DNA of 64,000 nt. It comes from Luteimonas sp. MC1825 (GTDB taxonomy: Bacteria; Pseudomonadota; Gammaproteobacteria; Xanthomonadales; Xanthomonadaceae). The stretch lies in NCBI RefSeq assembly GCF_014764385.1, contig NZ_CP061714.1, positions 1,302,001-1,366,000 of the forward strand. The letters run 5' to 3'. The notes below the pieces were generated by a model. It saw nothing but the letters and a program-made list of their open reading frames with translations. It was not told where the DNA came from and did no database searches. The position numbers and the translations under genes were made by a program. Below, in pieces: positions 44,636-48,616 of the stretch (position 1 is the first letter of the stretch; each line of letters starts with the position of its first letter).

Positions 44636-45765
44636 GCGAGGTGCTGGCGCTGACCAAGGAACTGGTCATGCGCGCGTCGGTGACGCCGGACGATGCCGGC
44701 TGCCAGGTGCTGCTCGCCGAGCGCCTGGCGCGCGCCGGGTTCGGCTGCGAGCCGCTGCGCTTCGGCGCGGTCGACAACCTGTGGGCCACGCACGGCGAGA
44801 GTGGGCCGGTGCTGGTGCTTCTGGGCCATACCGACGTCGTGCCGCCGGGCCCGCGCGAAACCTGGGCCAGCGACCCGTTCGTGCCCGAGGTGCGCGACGG
44901 CAGGCTGTACGGTCGCGGCACCGCCGACATGAAAGGCAGCGTGGCGGCGTTCGTGGTCGCCATGGAGCGTTTCGTGGCCGCGCACCCGGACCATCGCGGC
45001 ACCGTCGCGCTGCTGCTGACCTCCGACGAGGAGGGTGATGCGATCGACGGCGTGCGCCGGGTGGCGCAGGTGTTCCGCGAACGCGGCCAGCGCATCGACT
45101 GGTGCATTACCGGTGAACCTTCATCGAGCTCGCGCCTCGGTGACCTGGTGCGCGTCGGCCGTCGCGGTTCGCTGTCGGCGACGTTGCTGGTGCGCGGCAT
45201 CCAAGGGCATGTCGCGTACCCGGAGAAGGCCCGCAACCCGGTGCACGCCGCATTGCCGGCGCTCGCGGAACTGACCGCGCGAAGCTGGGACGACGGCTTC
45301 GAGAGCTTCCCGCCCACCAGCCTGCAGGTCAGCAACGTGCAGGCCGGTACCGGCGCGGGCAACGTGATCCCGGGTGAGTTCACGGTGCACTTCAACCTGC
45401 GCTACAACCCGCACTGGGATGCGTCGCGGCTGGAGTCGACGATCGAATCGATGCTGGCCCGCCATGGCCTCGACTTCGACGTTGGCTGGCATCGCAGCGG
45501 CGAGCCGTTCCACACGCCGGAAGGGCCGCTGCGCGCCGCCGCGCGCGAGGTGCTGGCGCGCATGACCGGCAGCGAGCCCGAGGAGAGCACGGGTGGCGGC
45601 ACCTCGGATGCGCGCTTCATCGCGCCGCTGGGTGCGCAGTGCATCGAGATCGGGCCTGTGAACGCCAGCATCCACCAGGTCGACGAGCATGTGGCGGTTG
45701 CCGATCTCGAAGCGCTGCCCGGGATCTACCAGGCGCTGATCGAGCACCTGCTCACTCCCGCCTGA
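44632..45765 (+). CDS. dapE: Succinyl-diaminopimelate desuccinylase
   Basis: 377 aa from a GTG at 44632 that overlaps the preceding stop (GTGA). The di-zinc M20 peptidase site is complete: His66 and Asp68 in [11 protein letters not shown], Asp in [11 protein letters not shown], the Glu pair in [11 protein letters not shown], Glu in ITGEPSSSS and His in [10 protein letters not shown]. It releases succinate from N-succinyl-LL-diaminopimelate. With DapD it covers two steps of lysine and meso-DAP synthesis in one operon. It is followed by a long hairpin at the convergent junction. Confidence 0.96.
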
Positions 45766-45839: not shown

Positions 45840-46535
45840 TCAGGGCTTGCCGGGACCCTTGCCGTTTCCGTTGCCGTTTCCGTTGTTGCCATTGCCGCGG
45901 CCCTTGCCGTTGCCCTGGCTACCCTTGCCATTGCCATTGCCATTGCCTCGGCCCTGGCTTGCACCCTGGCCTTTGCCCGGCGCGGCATGCTCCGCGTGCC
46001 CGCGGCCCGGCCTGTCGTGCGAGGCCTTGCCGCCGCGGCGATCCGGGCGCGACCAGTCGACGCGCACGTCACGGTCGATCACGATCGGATGGCCCCAGCG
46101 GCCGTAGGTATCCACCTGGCCGCGCTTGAGCGCGTGGAACGCCGGTGAACCGGGCTTGATGCCCAAGCGCTGCGCGGTCGCGCCCCAACCCTGGCCGGGG
46201 TGGCGGTCGTACTCGCGCACGACGTCGCGGCACGGGATGCGCAGCGAATGCGCAAGCGCGCAGGCGTAGTACACGTCGCCCGGGGCCCAGCGGCGCTGGT
46301 CAAGCAGTTCGACCAGCAGCGGGCGCGGCGCACCGTAATAGCCGGTCATCTCGTCCATGAACGGGTCGCGGTACTGGCGGCCATAGTCGTTGATCTCGCC
46401 CAGGCGTGAATCGACCCAGACATCGCCGGTGCGGGTGTTGTAGCCGATGGTCTGGGCGGATGCGGTGGCGGCGGTGGCTGCCAGGCCAAGGCCCAGCGCG
46501 AGTACGAGCGTGCGGATGCGGTGGTTCCGGGTCAT
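45840..46535 (-). CDS. Secreted protein with Gly/Asn/Lys low-complexity tail
   Basis: 231 aa with a signal peptide (LVLALGLGLAATAATASA) and an AAGGAG ribosome site. The middle contains GQGWGATAQRLGIKPGSPAF followed by HALKRGQ, a motif I associate with exported hypothetical proteins in this group; its function is unknown. The last 55 residues or so are a basic, disordered tail of G, N, K and Q (GNGNGNGKGSQGNGKGRGNG), encoded by near-repeats of CCGTTG/CCATTG read on the plus strand. Such tails could bind surface polymers or nucleic acids. It is convergent with dapE and divergent from the asnB leader. Confidence 0.72.
   Translation of the reverse strand: MTRNHRIRTLVLALGLGLAATAATASAQTIGYNTRTGDVWVDSRLGEINDYGRQYRDPFMDEMTGYYGAPRPLLVELLDQRRWAPGDVYYACALAHSLRIPCRDVVREYDRHPGQGWGATAQRLGIKPGSPAFHALKRGQVDTYGRWGHPIVIDRDVRVDWSRPDRRGGKASHDRPGRGHAEHAAPGKGQGASQGRGNGNGNGKGSQGNGKGRGNGNNGNGNGNGKGPGKP
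45846..45960. repeat. Imperfect hexamer tract encoding the Gly/Asn tail
   Basis: Repeated TTGCCG, TTGCCA and TTTCCG units lie in tandem. They encode Gly-Asn and Gly-Lys pairs on the minus strand. The tract is prone to length change by slippage in whole multiples of six, which would keep the frame. Confidence 0.6.
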
Positions 46536-46656
46536 GTTCGTTCGCTCCTTGAGGGTGGCGACATTCTGGATCCCCAGGCGATGAATCGGGGGTGATGCAT
46601 CGGCACCCGTGCGGAACGCGTTCAGCGGGTGGGAGGAAAGAGGGCGTCACGCGCGC

Positions 46657-46686
46657 TTGACGGCCACGTGGAGTGGAGGCTAGTTT
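46657..46686 (+). promoter_or_regulatory. Candidate promoter of the asnB leader
   Basis: TTGACG (46657-46662) and TAGTTT (46681-46686) are separated by 18 bp. The -35 is good, the -10 weak. The predicted start, near 46693, would be at or just before the leader ORF ATG (46694), so the leader peptide might be translated from a leaderless mRNA. An upstream promoter with GGAGG (46675-46679) as ribosome site is the alternative. Confidence 0.4.
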
Positions 46687-46693
46687 CGAGGCC

Positions 46694-46786
46694 ATGTCCC
46701 GCCACCCCGCCGCCACGCGCACTGCCTGCAACCGCAACAATCGCGGTTCGGACAATCGCGTGCGCGATCCGCGGGCGGGCGACTAG
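46694..46786 (+). CDS. Asn-rich leader peptide of asnB
   Basis: 30 codons from ATG to TAG, reading MSRHPAATRTAC, then NRNNRGSDNR, then VRDPRAGD. Four of the 30 codons are Asn (46730-46732, 46736-46741 and 46754-46756), three of them within four positions. The ORF lies directly upstream of an intrinsic terminator and then asnB, the enzyme that makes asparagine. This is the arrangement of ribosome-mediated attenuation: lack of Asn-tRNA would stall the ribosome at these codons and allow read-through. Not previously known to me for asnB. See the findings for the pairing analysis. Confidence 0.72.
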   Translation: MSRHPAATRTACNRNNRGSDNRVRDPRAGD

Positions 46787-46812
46787 GCAGGCGACACCAG
46801 CCAGGCAACCCG

Positions 46813-46842
46813 AAACCCGCGCCCGGCGCGGGTTTTTCGTTT
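46813..46842 (+). terminator. Attenuator terminator upstream of asnB
   Basis: A 10-bp stem (46813-46822 with 46826-46835, loop of 3) is followed by a T run (46833-46837, then CGTTT). It stands 27 nt after the leader stop codon and 50 nt before the asnB ATG. No other gene on this strand ends here, so its position only makes sense as a terminator acting on the asnB transcript itself. Confidence 0.85.
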
Positions 46843-46891
46843 CCGCGCAGGCGTTCCACCGCCGGTGATTGCCGGCACAAGGAGCTACGCC

Positions 46892-48616
46892 ATGTGTTCC
46901 ATCCTCGGCATCTTCGACCTTCGCCTCGGGGCCGACGTGTCCCTGCTTCGTCCCCTGGCGCTGTCGCTCTCGACGCTGCAGCGCCATCGCGGTCCGGACT
47001 GGTCCGGCGTGCATGCCGAACCGGCCGCACTCCTCGTGCACGAGCGGCTGGCGATCGTCGACCCGGCCGGCGGCGCGCAGCCGCTGCGTTCGGCCGACGG
47101 CAGCCTGGTGCTGGCGGTCAATGGCGAGATCTACAACCATCGCGAGCTGCAGGACGGGCTGCAGGATGGCTACGCGTTCCAGACCGGTTCCGACTGCGAG
47201 GTGATCAACGCGTTGTACAGCCATCACGCCGGTCGCGCGGATACCGGCGCAGAGGCGGATGACATCGGCCCGTGGCTGGCGCGGCTCAACGGCATCTTCG
47301 CGTTCGCCCTGTGGGACAGCGTGCGCGGTCGCGCGGTGATTGCGCGGGATCCGATCGGCGTCTGCCCGCTCTACTGGGGCCATGACGGTGACGGCCGGCT
47401 GTGGGTCGCATCCGAAATGAAGGCGCTGGCCCGGCACTGCGACGACGTGGCGCAGTTCCCTCCGGGCCACTGGTACGACACCGCGACCGGCACGCTGCAC
47501 CGCTACTTCTCTCCCGCGTGGCGCGACCATGACGCGACGCGCGGCATGGTGGTCGCAGCGGACGCGCTGCGGCACGCCTTCGAAGCGGCCGTCCATCGGC
47601 AGATGATGAGCGACGTGCCCTACGGCGTGCTGCTGTCGGGCGGGCTGGATTCGTCGCTGGTCGCCGCCTGCGCGGCGCGTTTCGCACGGCGGCGGATCGA
47701 GGATGACGACGCGTCCGAAGCGTGGTGGCCACGGCTGCACTCGTTCGCCATCGGCCTGGAAGGCTCGCCAGACCTCGCAGCGGCGGAAGTCGCGGCCGCC
47801 GCACTCGGCACCGTGCACCACGGTTTCATCTACACCTTGCAGGAAGGCATCGACGCGGTGCCGGAGGTGATCCGGCACATCGAAAGCCACGACGTGACCA
47901 CGGTGCGCGCATCCACGCCGATGTACCTGCTGGCACGGCGCATCAAGGCGATGGGCGTGAAGATGGTGCTGTCGGGCGAGGGCAGCGACGAGATCTTCGG
48001 CGGCTACCTGTACTTCCACAAGGCGCCCGACGCGCGCGCGTTCCACGAGGAGACGGTGCGCAAGCTCGATGCGCTGTACCAGTACGACTGCCTGCGCGCC
48101 AACAAGGCGATGATGGCCTGGGGCGTCGAGGCGCGCGTGCCGTTCCTCGACCTGGAGTTCCTCGACCTGGCGATGGGCATGGACGCGCACGAGAAAATGG
48201 TGCGCCAGCGCGGCACGGCGCGCCCGCCGATCGAGAAGGCGGTGCTGCGCGAGGCATTCGACGGGTTGCTGCCCGACGCCATCCTGTGGCGGCAGAAGGA
48301 GCAGTTCAGCGATGGCGTCGGTTACGGCTGGATCGACGGGCTGAAGGCGCATGCCGCGCAGGTCGTCGGCGCGCGCGCATTCGCCGAAGCGGCTCAGCGC
48401 TTTCCGTACGCGCCGCCGCTGACGCGCGAAGCGTACTGGTACCGCAGCCTGTTCGACGATGCATTCCCCGGCGCGGCCTGCGCGCGCACCGTGCCCGGTG
48501 GGCCGTCGATCGCCTGTTCGTCGCCCGCGGCGATTGCCTGGGACGCGGCGTTCGCAGGCCAGGCTGATCCGTCCGGGCGCGCAGTGATCGGCGTGCACCA
48601 GCCCGCCGGCGTGTGA
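46892..48616 (+). CDS. asnB: Asparagine synthase B, glutamine-hydrolysing
   Basis: 574 aa from the ATG at 46892, preceded by AAGGAG. Cys2 follows the initiator Met and becomes the N-terminal nucleophile of the glutaminase domain (MCSILGIF, RHRGPDWSG, NGEIYNHRELQ). The C-terminal synthetase domain has the PP-loop LLSGGLDSSL and LSGEGSDEIFGGYLYFHKAP. It makes Asn from Asp with glutamine and ATP. The frame is open upstream to 46865, but the Cys2 rule fixes the start. Control is probably by the attenuator just upstream. It converges with the acylase gene (12-bp gap). Confidence 0.96.
   Translation: MCSILGIFDLRLGADVSLLRPLALSLSTLQRHRGPDWSGVHAEPAALLVHERLAIVDPAGGAQPLRSADGSLVLAVNGEIYNHRELQDGLQDGYAFQTGSDCEVINALYSHHAGRADTGAEADDIGPWLARLNGIFAFALWDSVRGRAVIARDPIGVCPLYWGHDGDGRLWVASEMKALARHCDDVAQFPPGHWYDTATGTLHRYFSPAWRDHDATRGMVVAADALRHAFEAAVHRQMMSDVPYGVLLSGGLDSSLVAACAARFARRRIEDDDASEAWWPRLHSFAIGLEGSPDLAAAEVAAAALGTVHHGFIYTLQEGIDAVPEVIRHIESHDVTTVRASTPMYLLARRIKAMGVKMVLSGEGSDEIFGGYLYFHKAPDARAFHEETVRKLDALYQYDCLRANKAMMAWGVEARVPFLDLEFLDLAMGMDAHEKMVRQRGTARPPIEKAVLREAFDGLLPDAILWRQKEQFSDGVGYGWIDGLKAHAAQVVGARAFAEAAQRFPYAPPLTREAYWYRSLFDDAFPGAACARTVPGGPSIACSSPAAIAWDAAFAGQADPSGRAVIGVHQPAGV

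Follow-up and report, generated by a model that had tools for sequence, protein, structure and literature searches.

What controls the expression of asnB in Luteimonas sp. MC1825, and does the short asparagine-containing open reading frame in front of the gene take part? The gene lies in a 64,000-nucleotide stretch of the genome (contig NZ_CP061714.1, positions 1,302,001 to 1,366,000; hereafter the window, in whose numbering all positions are given). It encodes a glutamine-hydrolysing asparagine synthase B of 574 residues (46892-48616, plus strand), which matches the NCBIfam equivalog model NF006949 with 794.4 bits against a cut-off of 499. A first-pass annotation of the window had read the leader frame and the terminator behind it as an attenuator responding to asparagine starvation, and the analysis described here supports that interpretation: the element is very probably a classical ribosome-mediated transcription attenuator sensing charged tRNA-Asn, and it probably acts from a leaderless mRNA.

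Architecture of the asnB leader

The element lies on the plus strand and begins with a promoter-like pair of hexamers, TTGACG at the −35 position (46657-46662) and, after an 18-nt spacer, TAGTTT at the −10 position (46681-46686), 7 nt before the leader ATG. A strict consensus promoter scan of 46000-47200 reported no promoter and missed this pair too. The leader frame runs from ATG 46694 to TAG 46784-46786 (46694-46786, 30 codons and a stop) and is translated as MSRHPAATRTACNRNNRGSDNRVRDPRAGD. Its sensor codons (46730-46756) are AAC 46730, AAC 46736, AAT 46739 and AAT 46754; four Asn codons in 30 are, for the window alone, weak evidence.

Two predicted structures compete for the sequence around and behind the stop codon. 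Segment 2, the predicted 5' arm of the antiterminator (46770-46779), lies directly 5' of the leader stop and consists of CGCGGG (46770-46775) and CGGG (46776-46779). Its partner is segment 3 (46809-46822): in the register shared with relatives CGCGGG pairs with CCCGCG at 46816-46821, and duplex prediction adds the pairing of CGGG with CCCG at 46809-46812. The alternative use of segment 3 is as the left arm of an intrinsic terminator (46812-46841), in which 46812-46822 pairs with segment 4 (46826-46836) through 11 pairs, one of them G-U, around a CCG loop. The right arm ends in a T-run and is followed by the T-rich tail TCGTTTCCG; the fold has an energy of −19.1 kcal/mol and a z-score of −2.73.

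The leader frame with its four Asn codons, the terminator and the asnB start at 46892 are thus all in the sequence as first annotated. The terminator had been given as a 10-bp stem at 46813-46842; it is present, with 11 pairs spanning 46812-46836. The stems put forward for a pause hairpin (46742-46746 with 46769-46773, 46755-46759 with 46764-46768) are complementary as claimed; a ribosome that covers segment 2 while at the stop would make such a 1:2 hairpin dispensable. The antiterminator that had been suggested, CGGGCG with CGCCCG (46776-46781 with 46820-46825), can pair, but the register common to relatives sits 5' of it.

Going upstream, the first plus-strand gene to have a family match encodes a peptidase M20 and ends at 45765, about 1 kb away. 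The terminator is unlikely to belong to an unrelated upstream transcript, which would have told against an attenuator, because of this distance and because leader and terminator are kept as a unit across families. Between this gene and the leader lies a minus-strand frame of 231 residues (45840-46535), oriented away from the leader; its start is signal-like and its tail a Gly-Asn-Gly-Lys repeat. As it has no Pfam match, it does not count as a confirmed gene.

Conservation of the Asn leader

At E ≤ 1e-100, 269 of 297 genomes of the family have asnB; in the order it is found in 128 of 200. Upstream regions were taken from 30 family loci, 80 named loci and 140 further loci, hand-picked from the matches listed. 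The 168 distinct regions kept come from the whole-genome families f1, f2 and f12 and from named records, which include Lysobacter, Luteimonas, Thermomonas, Arenimonas, Pseudoxanthomonas, Stenotrophomonas, Xanthomonas, Rhodanobacter, Dyella, Fulvimonas and Frateuria. Left out beforehand were exact duplicates over the last 262 bases, three records whose titles name other phyla (L047, L052, L058), 37 distant regions (L078-L114), the other families of the order (L224-L254), and two regions (L222, L223) whose asnB is 64% and 62% identical and has no leader.

An Asn-rich leader frame precedes asnB in 166 of these 168 regions upstream of close orthologues, as the attenuator reading had predicted of the frame and its Asn codons. 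It has an ATG in 161; in three (L032, L043, L176) the Asn frame is without an ATG in the retrieved sequence, so that they are counted as carriers and stand outside the 161 leaders analysed; and in two (L015, L031) it lies further upstream, with 341 and 422 nt between leader stop and asnB against a median of 105. In these two the terminator is still directly behind the leader and the extra sequence comes after it. The two close orthologues without the element (L163, L173) have no cluster of four Asn codons within 1.3-1.4 kb upstream; in L163 a single long frame contains three Asn within nine codons, which was not counted.

Between −300 and −50, a cluster of at least four Asn in nine codons is present on the coding strand in 91.1% of the 168 regions, against 0% on the other strand and 0.2% of 840 dinucleotide shuffles; Thr shows the second-largest gap (39.9% coding, 4.8% other strand, 7.9% shuffles). 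The median length of the leaders is 32 residues (18-67), and their median number of Asn is 6 (3-10). Between equal-length leaders at least 60% identical, differences at Asn codons are synonymous in 120 cases and non-synonymous in 125, against 196 and 765 at other codons, these being pairs of sequences and not independent events. Of the 401 Asn codons that the leaders of 63 loci contain, 198 are AAT, against 86 of 541 in the asnB genes of these loci, and the share is higher in the leader at 58 of the 63.

A terminator and a probable antiterminator sharing one arm

Behind 159 of the 161 leaders, and behind none of 805 shuffles, stands a hairpin with four or more T and an energy of at most −15 kcal/mol, and in 149 of the 161 the strong hairpin starts 20-30 nt past the leader stop. 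A more lenient search finds a match after every one of the 161 leaders (median 10 pairs, −21.7 kcal/mol); it also passes 159 of the 805 shuffles, and the stricter line was therefore used. In all 161 leaders the stop precedes the hairpin, and both alternative stems carry compensating changes in the alignment, in keeping with what the first-pass annotation had proposed to look for.

Segment 2 starts a median of 5 nt past the last Asn codon and ends a median of 3 nt before the stop. Its pairing with segment 3 has a median of −20.1 kcal/mol, compared with −14.6 for shuffled segment 2 and −18.6 for swapped segment 3. The sequence's own segment 3 does better than the mean of the swapped ones in 111 of 161, and the own pairing beats shuffled segment 2 by 2 standard deviations in 84 of 161; the effect of swapping is modest because the core is alike in many sequences.

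Covariation was scored on a sequence-only alignment of 160 distinct rows against 500 shuffles, which ignore relatedness. Paired cells make up 75.9% of the antiterminator (69.9% in shuffles) and 93.6% of the terminator (86.0%), and cells changed on both sides number 109 in the antiterminator (65 ± 6 in shuffles) and 206 in the terminator (69 ± 13); none of the 500 shuffles reaches any of these four values. The number of pair types is less telling: 16 in the terminator, reached by 13 of 500 shuffles, and 13 in the antiterminator, not above the shuffles (mean 14.4, reached by 484 of 500). When the register is slid, pairing falls to 32-42% in the antiterminator and 24-57% in the terminator.

One pair of the antiterminator core (columns 28:80) is G-C in 144 rows and A-U in 16, with no mismatch in the 160 rows. 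In 14 of the 16 A-U rows the terminator keeps a G-U pair instead, which fits conservation of the antiterminator itself. Mismatches in core columns 26-31 number 10, 15, 0, 9, 17 and 25, and some rows need another antiterminator register. The paired and doubly changed cells point to a mutually exclusive antiterminator that shares one arm with the terminator.

Ribosome position and choice of fold

In a folding model with the ribosome placed on the leader and the transcript cut off ahead of segment 4, the median probability that segment 3 pairs upstream is 0.70 when the ribosome stands on the best Asn codon and 0.19 when it stands on the stop. The window's own leader behaves alike (0.69 against 0.05), and so do the E. 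coli leaders thrL, leuL and trpL, which reach at best 0.56, 0.37 and 0.71 under stall against 0.00-0.01 on the stop; the hisL control is unscored, the perfect-stem search finding no hairpin in it. The difference between stall and stop exceeds 0.3 in 136 of the 161 leaders, and a median of 4 further bases of segment 4 are then required by the terminator. In 14 of the 161, segment 3 is mostly paired even when the ribosome stands on the stop. In this model a ribosome on the sensor codons leaves segment 2 free, and one on the stop covers it.

In full-length transcripts at equilibrium, no Asn stall brings the terminator probability down to 0.5 in 80% of the 161 leaders, and the E. coli controls keep the terminator at 0.97-1.00 under stall. 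As a test of switching, equilibrium folding is therefore uninformative for most of the sequences and for the controls. Because the terminator outcompetes the antiterminator at equilibrium in most sequences, switching has to be kinetic, which holds for the E. coli controls too. In 31 of the 161 leaders the probability on the stop minus that under the best stall exceeds 0.7 at equilibrium; here the antiterminator wins outright, for example in a Xanthomonas and a Stenotrophomonas leader (L062, L074).

Promoter position and a probable leaderless start

The distance between promoter and leader is kept. When the 161 leaders are aligned on the ATG, which was set as the last one in frame ahead of the Asn cluster, TTG starts at −37, −36 or −35 in 131, with 18 occurrences elsewhere between −42 and −25. 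T stands at −7 in 59% and A at −11 in 52%; the −10 box of the window is one base further from its ATG. This spacing would put +1 at about the A of the leader ATG, and the leader mRNA should therefore start at or next to the AUG; most likely it is leaderless. Leaderless attenuator leaders have been reported in Sinorhizobium meliloti and Streptomyces lividans (PMC7298713; PMC8079986).

A bolder proposal would make this an order-wide class of attenuators with an obligately leaderless mRNA, which read Asn-tRNA together with the capacity for leaderless initiation, and whose terminated RNA of about 145 nt persists as a leaderless small mRNA or a regulator in trans, as is reported of S. meliloti trpL. 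In the obligately leaderless case a ribosome would have to join a bare 5' AUG behind the polymerase. This proposal is judged unlikely as it stands.

Charging of tRNA-Asn and a proposed mechanism

A leader-peptide attenuator is expected to sense a tRNA whose charging depends on the free amino acid. The genome has an asparaginyl-tRNA synthetase (AsnRS, TIGR00457) and no match to GatB (TIGR00133). In the sample of the order, 56 of 200 genomes have a gatB match and 128 this asnB, and none has both (lists were compared for the 94 genomes outside f1, and the 34 of f1 were compared by eye). The synthetase and the mutual exclusion of asnB and gatB imply that in the sampled leader-bearing genomes tRNA-Asn is most likely charged with free asparagine, and the same dependence on the free amino acid most likely holds in the window's genome.

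Comparison shows that the Asn frame, the terminator and the promoter position are kept, that the alternative pairing has compensating changes, and that AsnRS comes with no GatB match; the sequence of events would then be as follows. Transcription would start at or next to the leader AUG, as the promoter geometry suggests, and a ribosome would load on the 5' end with no Shine-Dalgarno site. When Asn-tRNA is ample, the ribosome would run through the Asn codons to the stop and cover segment 2, so that segments 3 and 4 form the terminator and the transcript ends near 46840. When Asn-tRNA is scarce, it would stall on the Asn codons and leave segment 2 free just downstream; segment 2 would pair with segment 3 once this is made, the terminator would be delayed or prevented, and polymerase would read through into asnB. 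AsnB makes asparagine, with which AsnRS would charge tRNA-Asn, and the expected physiological response would close the loop.

Alternative explanations

The least improbable alternative, itself very improbable, is that the leader frame encodes a functional small peptide, or is part of a trans-acting small RNA, with the terminator ending a short gene and asnB starting downstream of it. Such a product would fit the leader lengths (18-67 residues) and the motifs that recur at the C-terminus, among them LPRAGD and RPMRVCD, and the S. meliloti trp leader peptide is reported to act in trans (PMC7298713). However, the recurrent C-terminus is the translation of segment 2, a stretch that covaries with the terminator arm at the level of bases, whereas the N-terminal halves differ between genera as judged by eye. 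The Asn codons adjoin segment 2, and the downstream gene makes asparagine. No consensus promoter was found between terminator and asnB, in a scan that missed the leader promoter as well.

Less probable still is an element that senses something other than Asn-tRNA, be it a metabolite riboswitch, a T-box, or Rho-dependent or translational control, although a riboswitch is conceivable in principle wherever a leader has a terminator. In the window only tRNA reaches the Rfam gathering threshold: none of the Rfam leader families (Thr_leader RF00506 and others) does, and the T-box covariance model has no match at that level. In 14 relatives searched at E ≤ 1 the matches are below threshold: Thr_leader at the element with 30.1 bits in L041 and 28.6 in L054 (threshold 55), and STnc320 on the other strand at the element with 29.6 bits in L054 (threshold 50). 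A riboswitch or T-box is thus without Rfam support in the window and in these relatives. Moreover, exchange between AAC and AAT with Asn kept exceeds the synonymy of other codons, which a metabolite sensor would not require.

The window by itself, with just four Asn codons in 30, might have been a chance frame near another transcript's terminator, but the comparison with relatives (166 of 168 regions; the Asn cluster on the reverse strand and in shuffles at 0% and 0.2%; hairpins at 159 of 161 against 0 of 805) leaves chance practically no room. By far the most probable reading is the attenuator responding to charged tRNA-Asn.

Distribution beyond close relatives

In other families of the order (f4, f5, f7, f9, f10) an Asn leader precedes asnB in 1 of 31 regions, and the remaining 30 have none. 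These families have asnB without the leader, and the attenuator is therefore one solution among others. The single case (L232, from genome G367 of family f7) has an Asn-rich leader with its own terminator and an asnB that is 63% identical; the 11 other f7 regions sampled have no such leader. Its antiterminator pairing has −14.0 kcal/mol against −7.7 ± 2.5 for shuffles. The ATG lies well downstream of a −10-like box, so that this leader is not leaderless, and because the ATG is not at the predicted +1 the case may be independent.

Among the 37 named distant regions, at least three Asn in eight codons occur in five (L095, L099, L104, L109, L111). One of these, in a record titled Rubrivirga sp. 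and thus from another phylum (L111), has a frame with NLTNANRNP followed by a strong terminator, some 100-200 nt upstream of asnB; in the single stretch tried, its antiterminator pairing does not exceed that of shuffles. Records titled Rhodococcus, Holophagales and Deltaproteobacteria (L047, L052, L058) carry an asnB 71-77% identical to that of the window and no leader. They may reflect either transfer or mislabelled or mixed assemblies.

Other amino acid genes of this genome were also inspected. No leader was seen by eye in the roughly 400 bases upstream of the aspartokinase gene. The hisG gene is directly preceded by a regulator-like minus-strand frame of 108 codons (L265:2118-2441), perhaps the HisR reported for this order (PMC9413887). 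The large subunit of acetolactate synthase (TIGR00118) has no match in the whole genome, which would be compatible with a possible auxotrophy for branched-chain amino acids.

Relation to known systems and significance

The closest parallels are thrL, leuL and trpL of E. coli: each has a leader frame with codons for the cognate amino acid, a stop before the terminator, competition between 2:3 and 3:4 pairing, and the same in-silico behaviour with stalled and finishing ribosomes. The asnB element differs in its Asn sensor, in its target, an asparagine synthase gene, and in its apparently leaderless leader, whereas E. coli attenuator leaders possess ribosome binding sites. Asn-responsive T-boxes of Firmicutes likewise couple tRNA-Asn charging to asparagine genes, but they bind the tRNA directly and use neither leader peptide nor ribosome. 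Among leaderless systems, S. meliloti trpL senses Trp instead of Asn, belongs to a distant bacterium and is reported to act in trans too, through both RNA and peptide (PMC7298713). In S. lividans, RNA-seq has revealed leaderless Leu, Trp, Ilv, Met and Thr leader peptides (PMC8079986); none of the eight leaders described there is for Asn, several are without a clear terminator, and the word asparagine is absent from the main text.

No prior report of an Asn attenuator was found among the open papers retrieved, judged mainly by title and the opening lines of the abstract; a mention in the proteobacterial survey of 2004 (Vitreschak) is possible. The main text of Naville and Gautheret 2010 (PMC2965389) contains neither 'asn' nor 'asparagine', and Seliverstov 2005 (PMC1262725) names, in the text available, trp, ilv, cys, leu and ile. 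Xanthomonas AsnB2 appears in the accessible text of PMC3771888 only as a test gene for a small RNA, while PMC5009743 and PMC11282234, as far as their available text goes, treat other subjects. No NCBIfam model matches any of three leaders tried. The mechanism is classical; what appears to be new is that asparagine is the amino acid sensed and that the setting spans the order and seems to be leaderless.

With this attenuator, asparagine would become one of the amino acids to which leader-peptide attenuation responds. The antiterminators, which range from weak to very strong and lie on apparently leaderless transcripts, form a natural series that suits tests of how leaderless initiation is coupled to transcription. 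The element would supply a regulator of asnB for Lysobacter, Xanthomonas, Stenotrophomonas, Luteimonas, Rhodanobacter, Dyella and their kin, going by record titles, and it would tie the regulation of the gene to the route by which this lineage charges its tRNA-Asn.
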